A stretch of 64,000 bases of DNA from Colwellia sp. PAMC 20917. Lineage in GTDB: Bacteria > Pseudomonadota > Gammaproteobacteria > Enterobacterales > Alteromonadaceae. The position numbers were made by a program, and so were the translations under genes. This document shows, one piece after another, positions 2,245-19,509 of this stretch (positions are counted from its first letter, which is position 1; each line of letters opens with the position of its first letter). The notes under the pieces were generated by a model. The model made no database searches. It was not told where the DNA came from and was given only the letters and a program-made list of their open reading frames with translations. Location: the NCBI RefSeq assembly GCF_001767295.1, contig NZ_CP014944.1, positions 372,001 to 436,000 of the forward strand, in the 5' to 3' direction.

Positions 2245-3081
2245 TTAACTCTTCGGACGTATAAATGGCATATGTCTATTTACATCTTTATATAATAAGT
2301 ATCTAAATGGACCTGGGCCACCGGCATAGCAAGATTGCGGACAAAAAGCACGTAACCACATAAAGTCACCCGCCTCTACTTCAACCCACTCACCGTTTAA
2401 ATGATAAACAGCTTTACCTTCTAAAACATATAATCCATGTTCCATCACATGTGTTTCGTCAAAAGGGATCACGCCGCCTGGTTCAAAAGTTACAATGTTT
2501 ACATGCATATCATGGCGCATATCTGATTGCTCAGTAAATCTTGTGGTTTTCCATACACCACCGGTATTAGGCATTTCAATAGCTTCAACTTCATGGTCAC
2601 TGGTTACAAAAGCTTCTGGTGCATCGATGCCTTCAACAACTTGATAAGCTTTGCGGATCCAATGGAATTTTACATTTTCTAAACTATTATTTTTAAGTGT
2701 CCATTTGGCACCAGCAGGTAAATAAGCATAGCCGCCTGATGTCATATGGTGGTTTGTCCCTTCGATAGTAACATCCATTTCACCTTCAACAATAAAGAGT
2801 ACACCTTCAGAATTTTTATCAAGTTCTGGTTTTTCAGAGCCGCCGTTTGGTGCTACTTCTACTATGTATTGAGAAAAAGTTTCTGAAAAACCACTCAATG
2901 GACGAGCCAGCACCCACATCCTCATATTATTCCAAAAGGGTAAATAACTGATAACAATATCAGTTAACACACCTTTAGGAATAATTGCGTAAGCTTCGGT
3001 AAAAATAGCGCGGTCAGAGATCAATTGTGTTTGTGGGGGTAATCCACCTTTAGGCGCATAATATGTACTTTTATTAGACAT
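2245..3081 (-). CDS. allE: (S)-ureidoglycine aminohydrolase
   Basis: A 278-residue bicupin protein. The sequence after the start (MSNKSTYYAPKGGLPPQTQ) and the internal cupin motifs match the family that releases ammonia from (S)-ureidoglycine to give (S)-ureidoglycolate in the cytoplasm, a Mn-dependent step of allantoin breakdown. An upstream in-frame ATG would give 303 residues, but that extension lies inside glcB; the chosen ATG sits in an 8-base overlap with the glcB stop (ATGTCTAA), a translational-coupling arrangement. Its presence implies an allantoate amidohydrolase and a ureidoglycolate-degrading enzyme encoded elsewhere. The symbol follows the enterobacterial name; UGHY or ylbA are alternatives. 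Confidence 0.9.
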   Translation of the reverse strand: MSNKSTYYAPKGGLPPQTQLISDRAIFTEAYAIIPKGVLTDIVISYLPFWNNMRMWVLARPLSGFSETFSQYIVEVAPNGGSEKPELDKNSEGVLFIVEGEMDVTIEGTNHHMTSGGYAYLPAGAKWTLKNNSLENVKFHWIRKAYQVVEGIDAPEAFVTSDHEVEAIEMPNTGGVWKTTRFTEQSDMRHDMHVNIVTFEPGGVIPFDETHVMEHGLYVLEGKAVYHLNGEWVEVEAGDFMWLRAFCPQSCYAGGPGPFRYLLYKDVNRHMPFIRPKS

Positions 3082-5269
3082 TTTCGTTTTTCCTTGTTGT
3101 TTGGGCTTCATTAAATTCTTTCCTATAAGCGTGAAGTAAAGGCTCGGTATAACCATTGGGCTGTGTTTTTCCTTTAAAGATGAGATCTAATGCTGCTTGA
3201 AAAGCTAAACTACTGACAAAGTTAGCAGACATTGGCTGATATAAAGGGTCATGGGCATTTTGTTGATCAACAATAACCGCCATTTTTTCTAAGGAAGACC
3301 TCACTTCAGACTCAGATAAAATACCATGTATTAGCCAGTTACAAATGTGCTGACTAGAAATTCGTAATGTCGCTCTATCTTCCATTAAGCCAACATTGTT
3401 AATATCGGGGACTTTTGAGGCGCCCATGCCTAAATCAACCCAACGAACTACATAACCCAAGAGACCTTGGGCATTGTTATTAAGCTCTTTTTCAATAGCC
3501 TCTTTACTCAATTGCTCAGATTTTTTTAATAAGGGTACTGTTAATATATCATTTAAACGAGCACGAGGACTTTGCGAAACACTATTTTGTACTTTAAAGA
3601 CATTCACTTGATGGTAATGTATTGCATGTAAGGTGGCCCCGGTTGGTGATGGAACCCATGCCGTATTAGCACCTGATAAAGGATGAGCAATTTTCATTTT
3701 CATCATATCAGCCATTTCATCAGGAATAGCCCACATCCCTTTACCAATTTGTGCTTTACCCGAAAAACCGCAGGCTAAACCTATATCTACATTCCAATCT
3801 TCGTAAGCTTTAATCCAGGGTTGTGCCTTCATCTCACCTTTTAACACCATAGGACCTAGTAGCATACTGGTATGTATTTCATCGCCCGTTCTATCTAAAA
3901 AACCAGTATTAATAAATACAACGCGATTTTTTACGGCTCTAATACACTCTTTCAGGTTGACTGTTGTGCGACGTTCTTCATCCATTACCCCAATTTTAAT
4001 GGTATATCTGACAAGACTTAAACCGTCTTCAACAGCATTAAACAGTTTGTTAGCAAAAGCCACTTCATCAGGGCCATGCATTTTAGGCTTAACAATGTAG
4101 ACACTACCCTTTCTTGAATTACGGTGAATACTATTTTTTTGTAAATCGTGTAAGGCTATTAAGGTGCTTATCATAGCGTCCATGATACCCTCTTGAATTT
4201 CGAAGCCCTTTTGATCGAGTATTGCAGCACTGGTCATTAAGTGACCAACATTTCGACAGAATAATAAGCTGCGTCCTGGCAAATTTAAGTTGCCACCGTT
4301 AAGGTCCTGATAAATTTTATCAGCTTGTAATACTCGCTGGGTTATTTTACCTGCTTTATCAATAGTTTCACTTAAGTTACCTTTCATTAGCCCTAACCAA
4401 TTACGATAAACATGAATTTTTTCTTTAGCGTCTACTGCAACTACCGAATCTTCAAAGTCTTGTATTGTGGTTAATGCTGATTCTAAAGTAATATCTTTTA
4501 TATTTGCAGCGTCTGTTTTACCAATAGCTGAGCTTGCATCTATTTCTATCGCCACACGTAAATTATGATGGTTAAGTAAAATTGAGCTAAGCTTATTCTT
4601 ATCTCCCTGAAAGCCAATAAATTGTTCAGTATTTTTTAATAGTGAAGTACGACCATCAATTAAAGTGACTAAAAGCTTTTTATTGTCAATAGTATAAGCA
4701 CATGACTGATGATGTGAGCCATTGACGAGTGGAAAGTGATCATCTAAAAACTCACGGCCGTAAGCGACTACTTTTGCTGCTCTAATAGGATTATGCGTTG
4801 CTTTTTTCTCAGCACCATCTTCACCACTAATGACATTAGTTCCATAAAGGGCATCGTATAAACTTCCCCAGCGCGCATTAGCGGCATTTAATGCAAATCT
4901 AGCGTTGGCAGCGGGAACAACAAGTTGTGGTCCAGCTTGTGAGCTGACTTCACTATCTACGTTGTTTGTGTTGATAAGAAAGTCATCACCTTCAGGGCTC
5001 AAATAGCCTATATCAAAAAGAAATTGTTTATATTCCTCAATATCAAAATTATCTTGATGCGCGAGATTCCAATCATCAAGTTGTTCCTGTAATTGAGTGC
5101 GTTTTACTAATAAGGCTCTGTTTTCAGGGCCTAATTGATGAGTTATTGTTGATAAGGATTTCCAAAAAATATCAGCAGAAATGTTTAAGCCGAGTAAAAC
5201 CTCGTCTTCTATGAATTTTACTAAATCAATATCTACTTTTAGCAAGTTTTTCTGTTGATATATTGTCAT
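3074..5269 (-). CDS. glcB: Malate synthase G
   Basis: 731 residues, close to the usual 720-730 of the monomeric G form. It condenses glyoxylate and acetyl-CoA to malate in the cytoplasm. Conserved blocks seen include VVPAANARFALNAANARWGS, the substrate-loop region RSLLFCRNVGHLMT, MHGPDEVAFAN and the late NFVSSLAFQAALDLIF. It overlaps allE by 8 bases, so the pair is almost certainly one mRNA and malate synthase is the sink for glyoxylate released from ureidoglycolate. A tandem 27-bp operator lies about 140 bases upstream of the start, and is repeated ahead of puuD, which points to shared control by one of the regulators at 9.1-10.5 kb. Confidence 0.95.
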   Translation of the reverse strand: MTIYQQKNLLKVDIDLVKFIEDEVLLGLNISADIFWKSLSTITHQLGPENRALLVKRTQLQEQLDDWNLAHQDNFDIEEYKQFLFDIGYLSPEGDDFLINTNNVDSEVSSQAGPQLVVPAANARFALNAANARWGSLYDALYGTNVISGEDGAEKKATHNPIRAAKVVAYGREFLDDHFPLVNGSHHQSCAYTIDNKKLLVTLIDGRTSLLKNTEQFIGFQGDKNKLSSILLNHHNLRVAIEIDASSAIGKTDAANIKDITLESALTTIQDFEDSVVAVDAKEKIHVYRNWLGLMKGNLSETIDKAGKITQRVLQADKIYQDLNGGNLNLPGRSLLFCRNVGHLMTSAAILDQKGFEIQEGIMDAMISTLIALHDLQKNSIHRNSRKGSVYIVKPKMHGPDEVAFANKLFNAVEDGLSLVRYTIKIGVMDEERRTTVNLKECIRAVKNRVVFINTGFLDRTGDEIHTSMLLGPMVLKGEMKAQPWIKAYEDWNVDIGLACGFSGKAQIGKGMWAIPDEMADMMKMKIAHPLSGANTAWVPSPTGATLHAIHYHQVNVFKVQNSVSQSPRARLNDILTVPLLKKSEQLSKEAIEKELNNNAQGLLGYVVRWVDLGMGASKVPDINNVGLMEDRATLRISSQHICNWLIHGILSESEVRSSLEKMAVIVDQQNAHDPLYQPMSANFVSSLAFQAALDLIFKGKTQPNGYTEPLLHAYRKEFNEAQTTRKNENV

Positions 5270-5715
5270 TTACTTAACCACTTATTCCTTAATCATACGT
5301 TAATTGTTATGTTAATTATCTGTTGAGGTCTTCGCTGATAATTGTCTTTATCTAAAGCTGCAATGTTGATGAATGTAAACAAATTCACAACATCTGTCAA
5401 TAAAGGCAGTTAATTGTAAACACTATTGTTGACAATAAAACTTTAAGTCAACTCTATTAAGGTCAAACAATATTTATGCTTAATGAAATACCTTAAGAAT
5501 CACGTGTAATTTACCGAGAAGTTGACCTACAATGCGAGTAATGCACATAAAAATAAATAATAATCATTAACTTACTGGTTTAATGACTAATACTGACGGT
5601 CACAAACAAACGAGTGATTGCTTGACGACACCAAGATTGAAGTTGGAGAATACGTTATCATGTTCCATGTGGCAGACTACTTTTCAAATAAGAGGGTTAG
5701 CAAGATAAACCACCA
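5270..5715. other. Regulatory region upstream of glcB
   Basis: A 446-base gap that holds the glcB promoter and the tandem operator at 5410-5436. A second, poorer match with TGTAAACAAATT begins near 5374. Beyond about 5470 there is no convincing gene; the sequence may be the eroded start of the membrane-protein relic on the plus strand. Confidence 0.5.
5410..5436 (-). promoter_or_regulatory. Tandem ATTGT-N2-ACA operator upstream of glcB
   Basis: Read on the plus strand the box is TTA followed by ATTGTAAACACT and ATTGTTGACAAT. The second 12-mer is a perfect inverted repeat (ATTGT-TG-ACAAT). The same 27 bases, with two changes, occur inverted at 8971-8997 ahead of puuD. Two near-identical copies before two genes of one pathway are strong evidence for a shared operator. 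TTGT-N2-ACAA dyads are typical of GntR/FCD regulators, so the GntR gene at 9819-10523 is the best candidate; the TetR protein is the alternative. Confidence 0.75.
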
Positions 5716-6065
5716 TTGTTGAATCGTATTCCAACTCATCTTGGCATTTTGACGCTAACGCAAATTACTATGTCCGTTAGCGCGAGTATGTTGGCGAGTT
5801 ATTTTATGGGAGCAGACATTTTTGGTGCGTTAACTATGCCTTTTTTAGCGGTTAGAAGAACAGATCATCGTGGTTTTATGGCTAGTGAAACCTTTGTTTC
5901 AACTTACTTCTTTTGAGGGGGCATTGTAATATTTTTACCCTATGCTCAATCTGTTAACAACAACACCAGTCAAATATCTTAAATTAAGGCTCTTGGTGTT
6001 GTTGCTGTATCACTAGCTTTAGCTATTTACTCTGCTTACTACTTATTCTGCTTTATGGTTTGCTA
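5716..6065 (+). pseudogene. Eroded membrane-protein remnant
   Basis: The plus frame reads a hydrophobic stretch (LGILTLTQITMSVSASMLAS), hits a stop at 5914-5916, then continues in frame with GGIVIFLPYAQSVNN, another stop, and a further hydrophobic tail (VVAVSLALAIYSAYYLFCF) ending at 6065 inside the end of puuE. It resembles the C-terminal helices of a secondary transporter, which would fit a purine locus, but I do not recognise the family. The two in-frame stops and lack of an N-terminus argue that it is dead. Confidence 0.4.
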
Positions 6066-6963
6066 ACCAGTGCTCTGCAATATCTTGCCTTCTACACACC
6101 CAGACATCATTATATTTTCCAATATAATCTAGGAACTTAACCAGACTTGCAAAACGACCTGGTCGGCCAATAATACGGCAATGCAAACCAATAGACATCA
6201 TTTTTGGCGCATCAGCCCCTTCAGCATACAAGGTATCAAAAGTATCTTTTAAGTAACAATAAAACTGTTCACCTGAATTAAAACCTTGCGGACTAGCAAA
6301 ACGCATATCATTGGCATCTAAACTATAAGGGACAATTAAATGTGGCTTTTCTTTACCTTTTACATAATAAGGTAAATCATCAGCATAACTATCAGCATCA
6401 TATAAAAAAGAGCCTTCTTCCATTACCAACTGTCGAGTATTTTCGCTCATGCGGCCAAGATACCAACCTTTAGGTTTTTGTCCTGTCATTTCTTTGTGAA
6501 TAGCTATCGCTTTTTTTAAATGTTCACGCTCGGTTTCAATCGGTACATTTTGATAATCTATCCACCTGTATCCATGACTCGCAATTTCCCAATCTGCTTT
6601 TAACATCGCTTCAACCGCTTCAGGATTACGTTGCATTGCCATCGCGACACCAAAAACAGTTACAGGTAAGCCCCGCTGAGAAAATAAGCGATGTAATCGC
6701 CAAAAACCTGCACGGCTGCCATATTCATAAAAAGACTCCATGTTCATATGTCGTTCGTTAACAAACGGTTGTGCGCCAATGATTTCTGATAGAAAAGTTT
6801 CCGAGGCATTATCACCATGTAAAATACAATTCTCGGCTCCTTCTTCATAGTTGATCACAAATTGCACCGCCACTTTTGCCTTATTTGGCCAAGTAACCTT
6901 AGGCGCATGCTCTCCGTATCCTTTCATGTCTCGAGGATAATTATTCATATCTATTTCACTCAT
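6043..6963 (-). CDS. puuE: Allantoinase, polysaccharide-deacetylase type
   Basis: 306 residues of the NodB/polysaccharide-deacetylase fold, not the amidohydrolase-type allantoinase. It opens allantoin to allantoate without a classical dinuclear metal site. Recognised blocks are YPRDMKGYGEHAPKVTWP at the N-terminus, VAVQFVINYEEGAENCILHG, the ASHGYRWIDYQ motif and the C-terminal SIGLHCRIIGRPGR. Its neighbours PuuD, ureidoglycine aminohydrolase and malate synthase form the expected urate route. There is a broken Tsx-like gene immediately upstream, so it may be read from the puuD promoter. No strong separate promoter was seen. Confidence 0.93.
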   Translation of the reverse strand: MSEIDMNNYPRDMKGYGEHAPKVTWPNKAKVAVQFVINYEEGAENCILHGDNASETFLSEIIGAQPFVNERHMNMESFYEYGSRAGFWRLHRLFSQRGLPVTVFGVAMAMQRNPEAVEAMLKADWEIASHGYRWIDYQNVPIETEREHLKKAIAIHKEMTGQKPKGWYLGRMSENTRQLVMEEGSFLYDADSYADDLPYYVKGKEKPHLIVPYSLDANDMRFASPQGFNSGEQFYCYLKDTFDTLYAEGADAPKMMSIGLHCRIIGRPGRFASLVKFLDYIGKYNDVWVCRRQDIAEHWLANHKAE

Positions 6964-6991
6964 ACTAATGTCAACTCAATAGTTTCGTTTT

Positions 6992-7542
6992 CTAAAGTAA
7001 GTTCATCACAATGTTTGCCGGTATCGACCCTATCAAAGACGATAACAAAATCGATCTTTTTTCTGATATTAAGGGCATGTGCCAAATTCCTGCATGAAAG
7101 TTAAAGCCTTGTTGTCCATGGGTTACAAAAACCTGTAAATTTGCACTAGAAACAGAATCACCTGCCATTTTGACTCTCTTGGAAGTGAACTTGTTAGAGG
7201 TCATATCAGCTTGAACAAGGGTGTAAACCCTTTAATTGCATCGTTATCATCAGGTTTAAAGAGGCAATAGCGAGGACCAAACTCGATATGTGTACCACAG
7301 ATTCAATTAACATCACTGGCATGGGTTACATCGGCAAAAAGATAGCTATCACCCCACGTAAAGCCTGTTGCATTTGCAATAGTGAACGTTGCTTCATTGC
7401 CATCAGGGCTTGGTTTATCATGGCCTGTGTCCTATAAACTTGCTACTTTAATTGTACTAAAAGTAGCAAGTTGCGTTGTAGCCAAACTCAAACCAAGAAA
7501 TAGAAACGAGGCAACACTAATTACTGTGGTTATCATATTCAT
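6992..7542 (-). pseudogene. Relic of a Tsx-like nucleoside/purine outer-membrane channel
   Basis: The minus strand starts with a good signal peptide (ATG at 7542, MNMITTVISVASFLFLGLSL). A TAG stop follows, then frame-preserved text FTWGDSYLFADVTHASDVN, a TGA, then THIEFGPRYCLF. A frame change at the GGG run near 7230 leads to TLVQADMTSNKFTSKRVKMA and a final stop at 6992. WGDSY-F-D-T and the E-GPR-SL-type block are characteristic of Tsx/OmpG-like nucleoside channels. It sits between puuD and puuE, so it probably once imported purines across the outer membrane. Two nonsense codons and one shift make it a pseudogene. Confidence 0.7.
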
Positions 7543-7613
7543 TTATCTTCTCGGTTTTTGTTTTGTTGTAACTTTATTCCGTGATTATTTAGTTATATAA
7601 AGTAAAGGTAAAA

Positions 7614-8861
7614 TTACTCTTTTGTTGTTTGACCTTGTTGGTACCACAGTGCAATTAACTTCCGCTCTGAGTCAGTAATTTTAGTTAAATTACCTATAGG
7701 CATAGCTTTAAGGACTACGGCTTGTTGATAAATTTGGGTGGCTTGCGCTTTAATTTGTTCAGGTGTGTCATAAATAAAGCCTTTAGGCGCAGCGGCAAAA
7801 CCAGCTTGAGTGGGTTTGTCTGCATGACAAGATGAACAACGCTGTTGAATAATGGCTTGAACTTGAGAGAATTCTACTGGTGAGACCGTTGAATCAGTGT
7901 TCGTCACGATTGACTTAGGCGCCATAGCCCAGATAACGACGACCATAATAACTATAGCAGTAACTAACGCTCCTGTTAGTGGTTTTCCTGGCGTGTGACG
8001 CGAAACAAAGAACACCCGTATTAAAGCACCGGCCATAGAAATACCCATTAATATTAACCAGTTATATTCATGGTTATAGGTCATGGCATAGTGATTACTT
8101 ATCATCACAAAGACAACAGGTAAGGTAAAATAAGTGTTATGAACAGAACGCTGTTTACCTGCTATTCCGGGGGCGGCGTCAACTTTCTCGCCTGCAATAA
8201 GCCTTTCGACCATTTTCTTTTGGCCAGGAATAATAACAAAGAATACGCTAGCGGCCATAATAGTACCTAACATGGCACCAAAGGTCATAAAAGCGCCACG
8301 ACCACTAAATATGTGTGTTAATGCATAAGCGGCGGCAGAGACAAGTGCAAAAATTACAACACCTAAAACTAAATCGTTTTTAGCTAAAGCAGATTTACAT
8401 AAGAAGTCGTAAATAAGGTAGCCACCAAACATAAAGCCTAAGCTAATTGCAATGGCTGTGCTTTGCGATATATCAGCAACACTTGTATCAATAAGGTAAA
8501 TATCAGCGCCATACCAGTAGACAATAGCCATTAAAAAGAAACCACTGATCCACGTTGTATATGCTTCCCATTTAGACCAATGAAGATTATCGTCTAAAGG
8601 TTGATTTTTGGGACCCAACATGTATTTTTGCGAATGATAAAAACCACCACCGTGTACCGCCCATAACTCACCAAAAACACCATTTTTGGTATCTGCAGGA
8701 TTTTTAGGTGTATGTAATGAATTATCTAGCATAACAAAATAAAATGATGCACCGATCCAAGCTATGCCGGTAATGATATGAAAACTTCGCACTAAAAAAT
8801 TTAATACATCGAACAAATACGCTTCCAAATTTCTGACCCTTCTAAAGAATTTATATTGCAT
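7614..8861 (-). CDS. puuD: Urate hydroxylase PuuD (membrane protein with cytochrome c domain)
   Basis: 415 residues. The first 320 form about eight membrane helices with conserved HIITGIAWIGASFYFVMLDN and NNHYAMTYNHEYNWL-like blocks. The C-terminal domain is a monohaem cytochrome c with C342-x-x-C345-H346 and a likely axial Met387 (KAMPIGN). The family oxidises urate to 5-hydroxyisourate and passes electrons to the respiratory chain, replacing soluble uricase. The operator box at 8971-8997 lies about 110 bases upstream. Enzymes for the next two steps (hydroxyisourate hydrolase, OHCU decarboxylase) are not in the window. Confidence 0.93.
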   Translation of the reverse strand: MQYKFFRRVRNLEAYLFDVLNFLVRSFHIITGIAWIGASFYFVMLDNSLHTPKNPADTKNGVFGELWAVHGGGFYHSQKYMLGPKNQPLDDNLHWSKWEAYTTWISGFFLMAIVYWYGADIYLIDTSVADISQSTAIAISLGFMFGGYLIYDFLCKSALAKNDLVLGVVIFALVSAAAYALTHIFSGRGAFMTFGAMLGTIMAASVFFVIIPGQKKMVERLIAGEKVDAAPGIAGKQRSVHNTYFTLPVVFVMISNHYAMTYNHEYNWLILMGISMAGALIRVFFVSRHTPGKPLTGALVTAIVIMVVVIWAMAPKSIVTNTDSTVSPVEFSQVQAIIQQRCSSCHADKPTQAGFAAAPKGFIYDTPEQIKAQATQIYQQAVVLKAMPIGNLTKITDSERKLIALWYQQGQTTKE

Positions 8862-8970
8862 TTATAGCGCGGCTTAATTTGCCAACCTAACTATAGCTTA
8901 AGGCTTGTGTTGTGTTGTGTAATTTACATTCATTACTAAACATCAACTTAGCATATGAAACAAAAACAGC

Positions 8971-8997
8971 ATTGTCAACAATCTTGTTTACAATTAA
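8971..8997 (+). promoter_or_regulatory. Tandem ATTGT-N2-ACA operator upstream of puuD
   Basis: On the minus strand this reads TTA, ATTGTAAACAAG, ATTGTTGACAAT: 25 of 27 positions identical to the box at 5410-5436. It is in the same orientation relative to its downstream gene, puuD, as the first copy is to glcB. The two 12-mers are in direct tandem, so two dimers could bind on neighbouring faces. It lies between puuD and the regulator genes, so it could also affect read-through from them. Confidence 0.75.
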
Positions 8998-9125: not shown

Positions 9126-9788
9126 TTAGCGCTTCTCAGCAAGCTGCATACCACAACCTTTTAAAATGATATGTTTTATCGTTCTTTTAGCATCATCAAA
9201 GTCGCTATTAGTCAGCGGCCTATCTAAAGCAGCTTCAATCTCAACTGAAAAGTTCGCATAATGTTGAGTTGCCCCCCAAATAGTAAACAACAAATGGTAA
9301 GCTGATATTTGCTCATCTAACTTTCCTTGCGCTTGCCATGACTCAATAATGTTAGCTTTGTCAGTGATCCACTGTTTAAAATCTGTTTTCAAATATTGAC
9401 TTAAATAAGGCGCGCCATGCAGTAACTCACTAGCAAAAATAATTGAAGGAGTAGGATTAGTTCTTGAATACTCTATTTTCGCATCTATGTAGCTTGCAAT
9501 TGCTTTTGCTGGGTCATCATTGGGCTTTATATCAGCAAAAGCTTGATTCCATAAATTGATAATATTAGTCAACACCGCACCATAAAGCGCGAGTTTATTA
9601 GTAAAATAATAATGGATGTTGCTTCTGGGTAACATTGCCGTTTCAGCAATACGAGCAATGGACGCACCATTAAAGCCATATTTCTTAAATTCTTCTTCAG
9701 CAGCTTTTATTATTTTATTTTTGTTTAATAACCTAGCTTTTTGTTGTGTATTGACTAAATCATCATCAGTAATTTTTATTATTGCCAT
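9126..9788 (-). CDS. TetR-family regulator, RutR-like
   Basis: 220 residues. The N-terminal helix-turn-helix is clear (KIIKAAEEEFKKYGFNGASI, then IARIAETAMLPRSNIHYYF), and the C-terminal part (FASELLHGAPYLSQYL, then LLFTIWGATQHYANF) matches the RutR/YcdC ligand-binding domain, whose founding member senses uracil or thymine. Here, upstream of puuD, it more likely senses a purine metabolite. It follows the GntR gene by 30 bases and is co-directional with the catabolic genes. Ligand and target site are inference. Confidence 0.85.
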   Translation of the reverse strand: MAIIKITDDDLVNTQQKARLLNKNKIIKAAEEEFKKYGFNGASIARIAETAMLPRSNIHYYFTNKLALYGAVLTNIINLWNQAFADIKPNDDPAKAIASYIDAKIEYSRTNPTPSIIFASELLHGAPYLSQYLKTDFKQWITDKANIIESWQAQGKLDEQISAYHLLFTIWGATQHYANFSVEIEAALDRPLTNSDFDDAKRTIKHIILKGCGMQLAEKR

Positions 9789-9818: not shown

Positions 9819-10523
9819 TTAACGTTTTTTAAATATATCAACTAAATCGCTAGTAAATTCTTTTTCATCTAAATTTAAACGCGTTTCAATACTATGAATA
9901 TGTTGATACATAAGTGTTGTAGCTTTTTCAACCTGACCTTTTTCCATAACGTCGATAAGCTCGAAGTGTTCAAAATGTGAGCACTTTGGCGCATCAGGGT
10001 TTTCATACAGTACGATCACTAAAGAGGTTTGCGGTATTAAGGTTGTCAGAATGCGCTCAAGCGTGGTGTTTTTTGATATCTTCGCCAGCATCAAATGAAA
10101 GTCGCCACCGAGTTGAATACCTTCAACCATATGTTCACGTTCGATATTATTTTCTTCTGATTTAACTATTTTTTTCAATAAGTCGAAGTCACTATGCGTT
10201 GCATGCTTAATGACATCTTTAACAATCTCTACTTCAATTAATTTTCGAGCTTCGAGAATATCTTTGCCTTGTTTAACGGTAGGACTTGCGATAAATGCCC
10301 CTTTGTTCGGTTGAATTTCAATGATGTGATCTTGAGAAAGTCGCAGCAAAGCACTACGAATCGTTGTTCGACCCACATTGAATATTTTCGATAAATTTTC
10401 TTCAGTGAGCCGAGTACCAGGGCGTAAACGAAACGATAATATGGCATCAAAAATTTCTTGGTATATTTCTTTATCGCTAATTTTTTTAATTTTTTCGTCA
10501 GACTTCAACTTAGCTTTCATCAC
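9819..10523 (-). CDS. GntR-family regulator with FCD ligand domain
   Basis: 234 residues. A winged helix-turn-helix (FRLRPGTRLTEENLSKIFNV, GRTTIRSALLRL) is followed by an all-helical FCD domain with acid/His positions near residues 110-215 (LGGDFHLMLAKIS, HFEHFELIDVME). FCD members usually respond to small carboxylates and bind TTGT-type dyads such as those upstream of glcB and puuD, so this is the best candidate for the shared control of the locus. A degenerate copy of the same operator is seen at 10596-10616, upstream of its own start. The IS110 element sits 130 bases upstream and may have replaced part of the original promoter. Confidence 0.87.
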   Translation of the reverse strand: MMKAKLKSDEKIKKISDKEIYQEIFDAILSFRLRPGTRLTEENLSKIFNVGRTTIRSALLRLSQDHIIEIQPNKGAFIASPTVKQGKDILEARKLIEVEIVKDVIKHATHSDFDLLKKIVKSEENNIEREHMVEGIQLGGDFHLMLAKISKNTTLERILTTLIPQTSLVIVLYENPDAPKCSHFEHFELIDVMEKGQVEKATTLMYQHIHSIETRLNLDEKEFTSDLVDIFKKR

Positions 10524-10669
10524 AATCCTAAATACAAATTGACCACTTGGTACTAATCCTCTTAGATTATAGTATATAGAGTTTTATGTTAACTAGTCAT
10601 TGAACTTCATTACAATCAATCATCTTATCGCTAATTTAAATAAATAGACACAATGACTCCCCACAAGGT

Positions 10670-10746
10670 GCTAGCCTCTAAATGTGGGTTAGTTTTACAA
10701 ACCAGAGCCATAATATATGTGTCAACATTATCAAACAGAGGCTAGC
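10670..10746 (+). promoter_or_regulatory. Inverted repeat that would hide the transposase RBS
   Basis: GCTAGCCTCT (10670-10679) is repeated as its exact complement AGAGGCTAGC (10737-10746), and the second arm contains the AGAGG ribosome-binding site directly before ATG 10747. A transcript that starts outside the element would fold this stem and mask the RBS, whereas one starting between the arms would not. Several insertion sequences use this logic to avoid activation by read-through; its use here is inference. Confidence 0.6.
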
Positions 10747-11901
10747 ATGATAAAACATAACATACTTTTCATTGGCTTAGATACCCATAAAACATTTACT
10801 GAAGTCGCTTATATTGAAGACCAACGTGGCGCTAAATCAACTCATCTAGGTAAAATACTCAGTAATAAAGCCGCCTTTAAAAAACTCGCACGACAATTAC
10901 AATCAAAATATCCAGATGCCACACTTCATTTTGTTTACGAAGCAGGTCCTTGTGGCTATTGGATTTACCGCTTTCTCACCAGCCTTAATCATTGTTGCTA
11001 TGTCATCGCACCTTCTCTTATCCCTAAAAAACCAGGAGATAAAATCAAAACCGATAAACGTGATGCGCTCAAACTTGCAAAGCTGCTCAAGTCTGAAGAC
11101 TTAACATCTATCTATGTCCCTGAGCCCGAAGATGAAGCCGTACGGGACTTATCTCGGGCACGAGAAACAGGCATGAAAGACTTAAAGGATGCTAAATATC
11201 AACTTAAAGCATTGTTATTACGTAACAACATTAACAGCAAAATAAAAGATAACTGGTCATTACAACATTTGCGTTGGCTCGCTGAATTAGTATTACCTCA
11301 TCCTTGTCAGCAAATTGTTTTGCAAGAAGCGGTTTTAACCATTAATGAACGACTAAAACGCTTAAAAAGGCTGGATAATGAATTAACACATCAAGTGAAA
11401 AACTGGCGGTTTTATCCTGTAGTTAAAGCGATACAGGCGCTCCGTGGTGTGAGGTTATTAGTCGCCACAGGAGTGATTGCCGAACTAGGTGACTTATCAC
11501 GGTTCGACCATCCCAGAAAATTAATGAGTTACCTTGGTCTTGTACCAAGTGAACATTCAAGTGGCGATAAACGCCATTTAGGTGCTATTACCAAATGCGG
11601 TAACAGCCGTGCAAGACGACTACTGGTCGAAGGTGCACATTCGTATAAACACAACGCCAATATTTCAAAAGAAATGCAATTAAGACAAGAAGGGTTAAGC
11701 AAAGAAATTATTGATATGGCTTGGCAAGCTCAACTGAGGTTGTGCCGCCGCTATCAACGACTCATGCATAAAGGCAAACATCGTAATGTGGTCGTTACGG
11801 CCATCGCCAGAGAAATGATCGCTTATATTTGGGCTATTTCTCGAGAGGTAGTGCTACCAAAAATTGATGTGAAGCTAAGAATATCGAGAGTACCTGCATG
11901 A
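10747..11901 (+). CDS. IS110/IS1111-family transposase
   Basis: 384 residues from the ATG at 10747, chosen because AGAGG precedes it; an in-frame ATG at 10717 is less likely. The N-terminal DEDD RuvC-like domain is visible (GLDTHK, FVYEAGPCG, KTDKRDALKLA). The C-terminal Tnp20 domain contains the serine-bearing block SEHSSGDKRHLGAITKCGNS followed by RARRLLVEGAHSY. The protein is full length with no stops, so the element may still be mobile. Family members use an RNA encoded by the element to choose the target. Confidence 0.93.
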   Translation: MIKHNILFIGLDTHKTFTEVAYIEDQRGAKSTHLGKILSNKAAFKKLARQLQSKYPDATLHFVYEAGPCGYWIYRFLTSLNHCCYVIAPSLIPKKPGDKIKTDKRDALKLAKLLKSEDLTSIYVPEPEDEAVRDLSRARETGMKDLKDAKYQLKALLLRNNINSKIKDNWSLQHLRWLAELVLPHPCQQIVLQEAVLTINERLKRLKRLDNELTHQVKNWRFYPVVKAIQALRGVRLLVATGVIAELGDLSRFDHPRKLMSYLGLVPSEHSSGDKRHLGAITKCGNSRARRLLVEGAHSYKHNANISKEMQLRQEGLSKEIIDMAWQAQLRLCRRYQRLMHKGKHRNVVVTAIAREMIAYIWAISREVVLPKIDVKLRISRVPA

Positions 11902-17802: not shown

Positions 17803-19104
17803 TCAGGCCACGTGAAATAGCTCAGACGGTGTTTTACCACCTGCACTCGAAAGTGCCTGAGCCGCATCAAGGGTGTTATCAAGCAACATGCCATCTGTCA
17901 GATGGACTACGCAGTTCAGCCTTATTACAGGGACTTTTACAGGTCTGCGATACTTTGCCACAAGTGGCGGGAGAAGGTATCCTTTTTCTATTCTACCGTT
18001 CTCGAATTTATTTTTAATGTTGGCCGAACCGACCAAATCCCGCACTCCAATGAAATCACATTCTGGATTTTTACACTGGTAATTGCGCCCCGAAGGTTTG
18101 TGTCTATGACCGCATTTCGGGCAAGTCTGAGTGGTGTACTGCTCTCCTATTTTATCAAGCTCTACACCTTGGAATTTACCTTTGTATTTAAGATAGGTGA
18201 GTAGCTGCCCAAGGGGATTGTTGCTGTTCATTTGATTTGAACGTCTTGAGCCTTTCTTCTTTTTCCGAGCATTCTTACTCATATTGATGCAATCGCCCAC
18301 AACAAGCATACCTGCTTGTTGTTTCACGCAATAATCAATCATTTGCTTGGATGCATGATGGAGAAAATTGCGCTGCTGATTGTCATTTCTGAACAGCATT
18401 TTAGCTTTTGCTACTCGTAATTTTCGGCTCCGTCTAGACCCTTTCTTGCATTTTGAAAGCAGTCTTGAGAATTCAGCGAGCTTCTTGTTTCTATACTGAA
18501 TTAACGAGCGAAGACCGCGACCAACTATGATCTCCGACGTTTCGCCATCGGTCATCGCTGCAAGATGAATTACACCTAAGTCAGCAGCAACTACGTTGCT
18601 GCCAGCGGACTTAATGATTTTGATATCTTGCTTTATCGTGAGCCTAAGCTCCCGAAAACTAAGCTCCGCCCCTGTGATTTTACCAATGGGTATATCTTTT
18701 GGAATGCGAACGATGAGTTTTTTAACTCCAAGTCCGTTTGAAAGAATGACGCGGTTACCTTTTCTTTTTATCGCCGAAGCCTTGTACATTACTACCTGGA
18801 AGTGCTTCCTGTCACGGTACGGATAACGAGCTTTTTTATCGCCAGCTTTTCGATTCTCTGAGGTTGTTTCGATGTTAGCAAAGAACTTTTTAATAAGCGC
18901 CTGGTTTGTCTGGCTATGAAGACGGTACTTACTTTTAAAGTGCTTTTCAAAATCACCTCTAAAAGGCCACTTCCATCGGCGTTTTCGGATGAATTTGTGC
19001 AGTTTAACCATATCGTTCCAAAGGCGAGCTGACTCTCTTCGCAACTCTGTTTGCAAAGGTGTTGTCTGACCGATATTAAATTTCGAAACGCTGATTAAAC
19101 TCAT
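17803..19104 (-). CDS. tnpB: TnpB RNA-guided nuclease, variant with rearranged RuvC site
   Basis: 433 residues, full length. RuvC-I Asp is D175 (VVAADLGVIHLAA), the zinc finger is C328-x2-C331 with C344-x4-C349, and RuvC-III Asp is D356 (VRDLVGSANI). The canonical RuvC-II glutamate position is glycine (MLVVGDCINM, G270). A glutamate lies 51 residues further on, E321 in KIGEQYTTQTCPKCG, matching the rearranged-glutamate TnpB/Fanzor class. The C-terminus is longer than usual by about 60 residues beyond the last RuvC motif. The guide RNA would be expected around 17770-17900 on the minus strand. Confidence 0.9.
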   Translation of the reverse strand: MSLISVSKFNIGQTTPLQTELRRESARLWNDMVKLHKFIRKRRWKWPFRGDFEKHFKSKYRLHSQTNQALIKKFFANIETTSENRKAGDKKARYPYRDRKHFQVVMYKASAIKRKGNRVILSNGLGVKKLIVRIPKDIPIGKITGAELSFRELRLTIKQDIKIIKSAGSNVVAADLGVIHLAAMTDGETSEIIVGRGLRSLIQYRNKKLAEFSRLLSKCKKGSRRSRKLRVAKAKMLFRNDNQQRNFLHHASKQMIDYCVKQQAGMLVVGDCINMSKNARKKKKGSRRSNQMNSNNPLGQLLTYLKYKGKFQGVELDKIGEQYTTQTCPKCGHRHKPSGRNYQCKNPECDFIGVRDLVGSANIKNKFENGRIEKGYLLPPLVAKYRRPVKVPVIRLNCVVHLTDGMLLDNTLDAAQALSSAGGKTPSELFHVA

Positions 19105-19509
19105 AATGACGACTATACTGTATAAATAAACAGTGTCAATAAGTGTCTGTATGAAATATAAAAAGAGCGCTCATTCTTCGTATTTAATTCAAGCTCACAT
19201 TATATTTGTTACTAAATATCGTGAGCGGAAGTTTACGAGCGAGATGTTATATAAAATGAACTTTATAATAAAAAGAGAATGTTTAAAACTAAAGTCAGAA
19301 TTGGTTGAGTTTAATGGGGAGTCAGATCATGTTCACATGATTATCTCTTACCTGCCTTCTATTTCAATTTCACGATTAGTTAATGTTTTAAAAAGCATTG
19401 CAGGTCGAGAGATGAAGTTGTGGTTTCCGCAGTTAAATCAGGTAGCTTGGAGGTAGAATGCACTTTGGAGCTCTGGTTATTATGCATGCTCTGTCGGCGG
19501 AGCGCCGAT

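Follow-up and report, generated by a model that had tools for sequence, protein, structure and literature searches.

The genome of Colwellia sp. PAMC 20917 is a single contig of 4.68 Mb (NZ_CP014944.1), and a stretch of 64,000 nucleotides from it (positions 372,001 to 436,000; termed the window) holds a urate and glyoxylate locus in which two copies of one predicted operator precede glcB and puuD. Glyoxylate is the end product of urate breakdown. All the genes concerned, namely allE, glcB, puuE, puuD, tetR and gntR, lie on the minus strand. glcB (3074–5269) encodes malate synthase G, with matches to NCBIfam NF002825 and TIGR01345 above cut-off. Downstream of it, allE (2245–3156) encodes (S)-ureidoglycine aminohydrolase; its listed open reading frame (ORF) overlaps glcB, and the family match begins at residue 29. 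The allantoinase gene puuE (6043–6963; TIGR03212) is followed by puuD (7614–8861), encoding a membrane urate oxidase (PF06181, 411.8 bits) with a weak cytochrome c-like tail match that falls under the cut-off (PF13442, 23.1 bits against 27). Two regulator genes complete the set. The product of tetR (9126–9788; PF08362) is a RutR-like TetR regulator that misses the equivalog cut-offs for the pyrimidine regulator RutR (TIGR03613, 163.3 vs 368 bits; NF011584, 145.8 vs 230). The product of gntR (9819–10523) belongs to the FadR subfamily, as it carries an N-terminal GntR winged helix-turn-helix (PF00392, 60.1 bits, cut-off 27) and a C-terminal FCD domain (PF07729, 72.9 bits, cut-off 24.3), and it is the proposed binder of both copies of the operator.

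A shared box at 5410–5436 and 8971–8997 was described in a first-pass annotation of this DNA, and the two sequences are indeed identical at 25 of 27 positions after one of them is reverse-complemented (9 of 27 on the same strand). Each contains two 12-mers, as described there, with the core ATTGTAAACA-NN-ATTGTTGACAAT. The box itself thus stands, and only its length needs revision, from 27 bp to 24 bp made up of two abutting 12-bp palindromes. Each palindrome is ATTGTnnACAAT, a known FadR/FCD operator form. The accessible text of one article describes FadR-subfamily operators as A/T-rich palindromes with TKGT and ACMA boxes 2 or 3 nt apart (PMC4494728); the halves of ATTGTnnACAAT have this form, from which we infer binding by the Colwellia GntR.

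Box 1 (5413–5436, plus strand) is located upstream of glcB, and box 2 (8971–8994, minus strand) between tetR and puuD. The two had been thought to share one orientation relative to the downstream gene. In fact they are opposite, because the two genes share the minus strand but the boxes match on different strands: the ATTGTTGACAAT half of box 2 faces puuD, whereas that of box 1, with its TTGACA at 5429–5434, faces the plus strand and points away from glcB. The difference is easily missed since the box is nearly palindromic. Shuffling the window 100 times gave no match to the box at three or fewer mismatches, and perfect matches to ATTGTNNACANNATTGTNNACAAT occur at these two places only in the genome. 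The other strand-matches to this pattern in the genome number 18, all with 3 mismatches, compared with 11 for a reversed-pattern control. A weaker third site at 10596–10616, proposed together with autoregulation of gntR, was rejected as noise: over the roughly 240 bp before gntR the 24-nt weight matrix scores −1.6 bits at best, the real boxes score 35–36, and ten aligned gntR upstream regions contain no conserved box.

Conservation was assessed in 197 genomes of the order, 295 of the family and 321 of the class, with loci taken for the best matches only, at most 30 for each search. A close GntR (67–100% identity) is encoded by 10 of the 295 family genomes and also by Colwellia ponticola, making 11 genomes. 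Within the genus of the window it is present in two of six genomes, and the same GntR appears in records of Colwellia hornerae, Colwellia sp. C1TZA3, C. ponticola and two Glaciecola drafts. Scanning the orthologous loci, the check that the first-pass annotation had suggested, located the box at urate or glyoxylate genes in all 11 (18 sites, 15 distinct sequences). It is found on the glcB side in G000, G197, G346, G380, G396, G434, G232, G345 and G363; at the puuD operon in G000, G346, G380, G396 and G434; at gcl-hyi-puuD in G363 and G345; at omp-permease-allA-puuE in C. ponticola; and at ytoQ-allE in G466. Mean information is 1.66 bits in the box columns and 0.55 and 0.81 bits in the two 12-nt flanks, figures that are descriptive given the relatedness of the genomes; G444 was excluded from this 18-site count and from the weight matrix. 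A strict consensus scan of 11 genomes, this time including G444, returned 14 places with zero mismatches, all of them urate loci, in 8 of the 11. In the Glaciecola draft G345, where genes were named by similarity and from translations, one box stands at glcB-allE with the divergent glxR-uraD-uraH-maeB-ytoQ-usp, and the other at gcl-hyi-puuD-omp-permease-glxK-allA-puuE. Conservation of the box at both gene sets suggests that malate synthase G is tied to urate oxidation by a common operator, as was originally supposed.

The co-occurrence of box and close gntR in 11 of 11 genomes, with one of these gntR genes broken, makes GntR the likeliest regulator, in agreement with the GntR/FCD control first proposed. 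GntR very probably binds both boxes, and there is good reason to regard them as the operators through which the FCD-type protein encoded at 9819–10523 would coordinate the urate and glyoxylate genes. The evidence here is sequence comparison, and binding, expression and ligand effects are inferred. Among the DNA-binding domains of eight GntRs that were compared, many of the invariant columns of the proteins are found. The broken gene is that of G466 (L090:9920–10588, minus strand), in which an in-frame stop interrupts the DNA-binding domain and the box has 2 mismatches; this gntR has probably become a pseudogene, the box next to it can still be recognised, and the locus may be in decay.

More distant GntRs appear to be associated with a single 12-mer. 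The pattern ATTGYATRCAAT was sought, against a reversed control, in 25 genomes with GntRs of about 40% identity in or near urate regions, and 47 sites were found compared with 11 for the control. By family, the counts for site and control are 30 and 1 in f21, 4 and 0 in f25, 9 and 9 in f2, and 4 and 1 in f9; these counts include one G103 site (C129) and several extra f21 sites away from urate loci. An exact ATTGTATACAAT forms a single site between puuE and uraH in all eight f21 genomes, and an exact site lies in the same position in all four f25 genomes. All seven f21 genomes for which gcl was fetched have a site just before that gene, exact in six and ATTGTGTACAAT in the other. In the f9 genome G175, ATTGCATGCAAT flanks one GntR on both sides and ATTGTATACAAT precedes another GntR near puuE. 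At the level of the class, GntR homologues of 31–41% identity occur in 12 other genomes of the 321, and in seven of the eight loci fetched the GntR gene is accompanied by urate genes. G743 and G633 have an exact ATTGTATACAAT between gntR and a permease-uraH pair, and in G638 and G621 a site with one mismatch precedes puuE or gntR; none of these four loci gave a TetR match (20 kb fetched for G743 and G633).

Further sites were observed as well. Upstream of the distant f21 gntR, two 12-mers (ATTGTATAGATA-ARTGTATACAAT) recur at the same 12-bp spacing as in the Colwellia box (L154:5568–5591, L157:4473–4496 and L159:2882–2905), so that this gntR may have a double site and be autoregulated. In G103, an exact ATTGTATACAAT (L253:4983–4994) lies beside a ytoQ-like gene on a contig other than that of the urate cluster; ytoQ also follows the G466 box. 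Near a Glaciecola urate cluster, ATTGTTAACAAT (L087:15629–15640) is contained in a longer perfect palindrome before a ghxP-type permease gene.

The position of the box relative to the promoter differs between the two gene sets. All promoters are predicted, and those compared comprise eight puuD-, gcl- or omp-side sites and eight glcB sites, the G363 glcB site being left out. In the window, the puuD −35 (TTGACA, 8973–8978, minus strand) is a consensus match inside box 2 and is separated by a 17-nt spacer from the −10 (TATGCT, 8950–8955, minus strand). On the puuD, gcl and omp side the ATTGTTGACAAT half supplies the TTGACA −35 in 8 of 8 cases, with TATGCT as the −10 in seven and TATTCT in G345. 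The glcB promoter is separate, its −35 (TTGACA, 5395–5400, minus strand) lying 12 nt downstream of box 1 and its −10 (TACATT) at 5372–5377 on the same strand. This TTGACA-17 nt-TACATT arrangement (TAAATT in G396) recurs in the eight genomes, and the gap from box to −35 is exactly 12 nt in each. With a start assumed 7 nt past the −10, which places the predicted starts near 8943 (puuD) and 5365 (glcB), the box is centred at about −40 at puuD and about −60 at glcB. The glcB −10 shares bases with the sequence TTGTNNACA (5373–5382, minus strand) in 6 of 8 genomes. The inner NN of this sequence varies (TTGTATACA in G197), and it may be a further half-site for GntR.

The orientation of box 1 reflects a divergent uraH operon that the box faced and that has since decayed. 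Read in that direction, the TTGACA of the glcB box is followed at 16–18 nt by TATAGT in all five of the compared genomes that keep divergent genes (G346, G380, G396, G434 and G345); G000, G197 and G232, where no divergent urate gene was detected, lack TATAGT at that spacing. Scraps of the lost operon, which is present in G346, G380, G396 and G434, are left on the plus strand of the window as a uraH piece (5603–5686) and an MFS-transporter piece (5773–5904). That box 1 has been kept, and at precisely 12 nt, suggests that it still has a role at glcB.

Without substrate, GntR dimers would sit on the box, blocking RNA polymerase at the puuD −35 and, from box 1, holding glcB down from just upstream. 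Once urate or a downstream intermediate accumulated, it would bind the FCD domain and GntR would release the DNA, so that the cell could begin to oxidise urate, degrade allantoin and clear the resulting glyoxylate through malate synthase G all at once. The glcB box would once have served the divergent uraH operon too and, after that operon decayed here, have been retained for glcB. That GntR acts mainly as a repressor is likely; that the inducer is urate or an intermediate of its pathway is favoured on balance, with less assurance. The only other malate synthase match in the genome lies at 3.175 Mb, about 4 kb from an isocitrate-lyase-family gene (region G000:C1:3175451–3181603). With that copy so placed, the glcB of the urate locus would be free to serve urate and looks like a dedicated second copy.

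A dual role, in which GntR represses puuD from a box over the −35 (centred near −40) and activates glcB from a box centred near −60, would account for the exact 12-nt gap between box and −35 in 8 of 8 glcB promoters, three of which have no divergent urate gene found beside them. However, the TTGTNNACA lying over the glcB −10 in 6 of 8 genomes is just as compatible with repression through binding at two sites, and the available part of PMC12694930 presents the related UgmR as a repressor, so that a dual regulator is rather unlikely. Equally tentative is an extended form of this view, in which the box is a compound element. One half of a double GntR operator would itself be a −35, and placement would decide how the element works: it would serve repression at puuD, as it once would have done at the divergent uraH operon, and at glcB it would be a phased upstream activator site. 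A single FCD regulator would thereby start urate oxidation and prime a dedicated malate synthase for the glyoxylate that follows. The Colwellia/Glaciecola lineage would have derived its double site from the single ATTGTATACAAT that its relatives have.

Several observations weigh against coordination of these genes by GntR. The glcB box lies upstream of the promoter, not over it, and a pair of dimers bound at a spacing of 12 bp might collide. In the draft genome G444, which is 90% complete, allE is preceded by a box with 2 mismatches, and no GntR was found at E 1e-40. Among the distant families, the 12-mer is no commoner in f2 than in the control, and only one of ten f2 genomes has a site at urate or glyoxylate genes, at gcl; in six other f2 genomes with a site, no urate or glyoxylate query matched within 1.5 kb of it. 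Among the three f9 genomes, the only site of G009 is far from its GntR and G055 has no site. An exact ATTGTATACAAT is present in just two of the eight class-level loci. The remaining points concern tetR, which adjoins gntR in 10 of the 11 close genomes; the sole exception is G466, with its broken gntR and 2-mismatch box, and it separates GntR from TetR only weakly. Moreover, distant TetR homologues (33–39% identity) are found in the urate or gcl regions of six of eight f21 genomes and in some of f25 and f2. Since they are so common in these regions, the three families on their own do not discriminate between the two regulators.

These last points are what favours the RutR-like TetR as the protein that binds the box, taken as a 24-bp quasi-palindrome, with GntR doing something else. 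The tetR neighbouring gntR in the box genomes is 73–94% identical among the relatives, and a 24-bp inverted repeat would equally suit a pair of TetR dimers. Its distribution argues the other way. RutR-like TetR homologues (E 1e-40) occur in 133 of the 295 family genomes and puuD (E 1e-60) in 112, both far more widespread than the close GntR. The box, at three or fewer mismatches, is absent from 43 loci (34 genomes, some overlapping, 164 kb) that have other RutR-like TetRs (48–52% identical) or the other puuD type and lack the close gntR, and the exact 12-mer was seen there once against 0.4 expected. In G743 and G633 the related 12-mer stands beside gntR with no TetR match in the surrounding 20 kb, and each 12-mer of the box fits the FadR-subfamily form. 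TetR as the likelier binder was set aside on the box-less loci and the TetR-less loci with a 12-mer, an argument whose force G466 reduces, and is considered improbable. Palindromes sought as a TetR operator at 22 loci that have the other puuD type yielded weak candidates only, for example TTGGC-N7-GCCAA in 6 of 22; at one mismatch or fewer this sequence occurs at six places in the window, none at the boxes. That the common sequence is a mere strong promoter core copied with its genes, with no regulator involved, would explain a TTGACA inside the box that fits as the puuD −35 but is scarcely credible, since the outer ATTGT...ACAAT arms are conserved even in the half without TTGACA, and more so than the flanks, the glcB −35 lies outside the box, and perfect copies of the box are confined to urate loci.

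Control by GntR, if correct, gives Colwellia and related bacteria a urate and glyoxylate regulon that can be tested, and predicts the operator of a urate-linked GntR group in several families of the class. The conserved operator keeps its place while the enzyme beneath it that consumes glyoxylate differs, being malate synthase G alone or together with glyoxylate carboligase. How FCD dimers share DNA is a structural question that the double site, with its 12-bp spacing, also poses.

Other remnants and mobile elements surround these genes. Between puuE and puuD (6963–7542, minus strand) lie a decayed piece of allA (6963–7201) and a piece of an outer-membrane channel gene, omp (7148–7542); the permease found between puuE and puuD in relatives has no match there in the window. 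Directly upstream of gntR is a transposase ORF (10717–11901, plus strand), which we take to be of the IS110 type, at a place that a malic enzyme gene occupies in several relatives. Two adjoining ORFs at 17803–19456 are presumably an IS200/IS605 TnpB on the minus strand and a TnpA on the plus strand.

Several known regulators resemble the Colwellia GntR in part. Its closest solved chain by sequence is 7xp0 (E 3.2e-13), presumably PmiR. HpxS, a GntR protein with a role in hypoxanthine use, shares with it a place in the 2-nt-spaced part of the FadR subfamily, a likeness by name only. AllR of Escherichia coli is an IclR-family protein, unrelated to GntR, and differs from the Colwellia regulator in this respect. 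According to a title cited in PMC12694930, AllR senses allantoin and glyoxylate and controls purine reutilisation genes. The FadR-subfamily groups with 2-nt spacing listed in the accessible text of PMC4494728 include HpxS, MdcY, PrpR and others. For PrpR of Pseudomonas aeruginosa, a 12-nt palindrome, ATTGTCGACAAT, was predicted, and a region containing ATTGTCGACAAT was shifted by the protein in a gel assay, as reported in the available portion of PMC9765439. Like the Colwellia protein, PrpR/PmiR (PA0797) is a GntR regulator with an FCD domain, and its predicted operator is a 12-nt palindrome; unlike the Colwellia protein, PrpR/PmiR controls the methylcitrate cycle, and that portion of the article names one 12-mer and makes no mention of urate genes.

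The closest known system to the Colwellia boxes is the regulon of UgmR (PA1520), a GntR-family regulator of P. aeruginosa. As far as the accessible part of PMC12694930, citing Xu et al. 2022, describes it, UgmR represses gcl and the allantoin cluster, before which it binds, and uric acid, unlike allantoin, relieves the repression; a YcdC/RutR-type TetR (PA1504) is encoded near that cluster, which parallels the tetR beside gntR here. The likeness lies in the GntR regulator and in the combination of urate or allantoin genes with glyoxylate genes. In both Colwellia and Glaciecola one predicted site type precedes urate/allantoin and glyoxylate-consuming genes with a GntR gene alongside (puuD and glcB here, gcl-hyi-puuD and glcB in G345), a resemblance to UgmR in gene arrangement. 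No description of this regulon was found in the titles and abstracts searched, nor any paper with the exact ATTGTATACAAT; subscription papers were thinly covered and absence from print is not proven. As far as literature searches show, then, this kind of system is already known; what is new in it is the connection with malate synthase G and an operator that is doubled at 12-bp spacing and contains a −35. Compared with the UgmR regulon, the glyoxylate sink under the Colwellia box is malate synthase G (glcB together with gcl in the Glaciecola drafts), and the operator is double.

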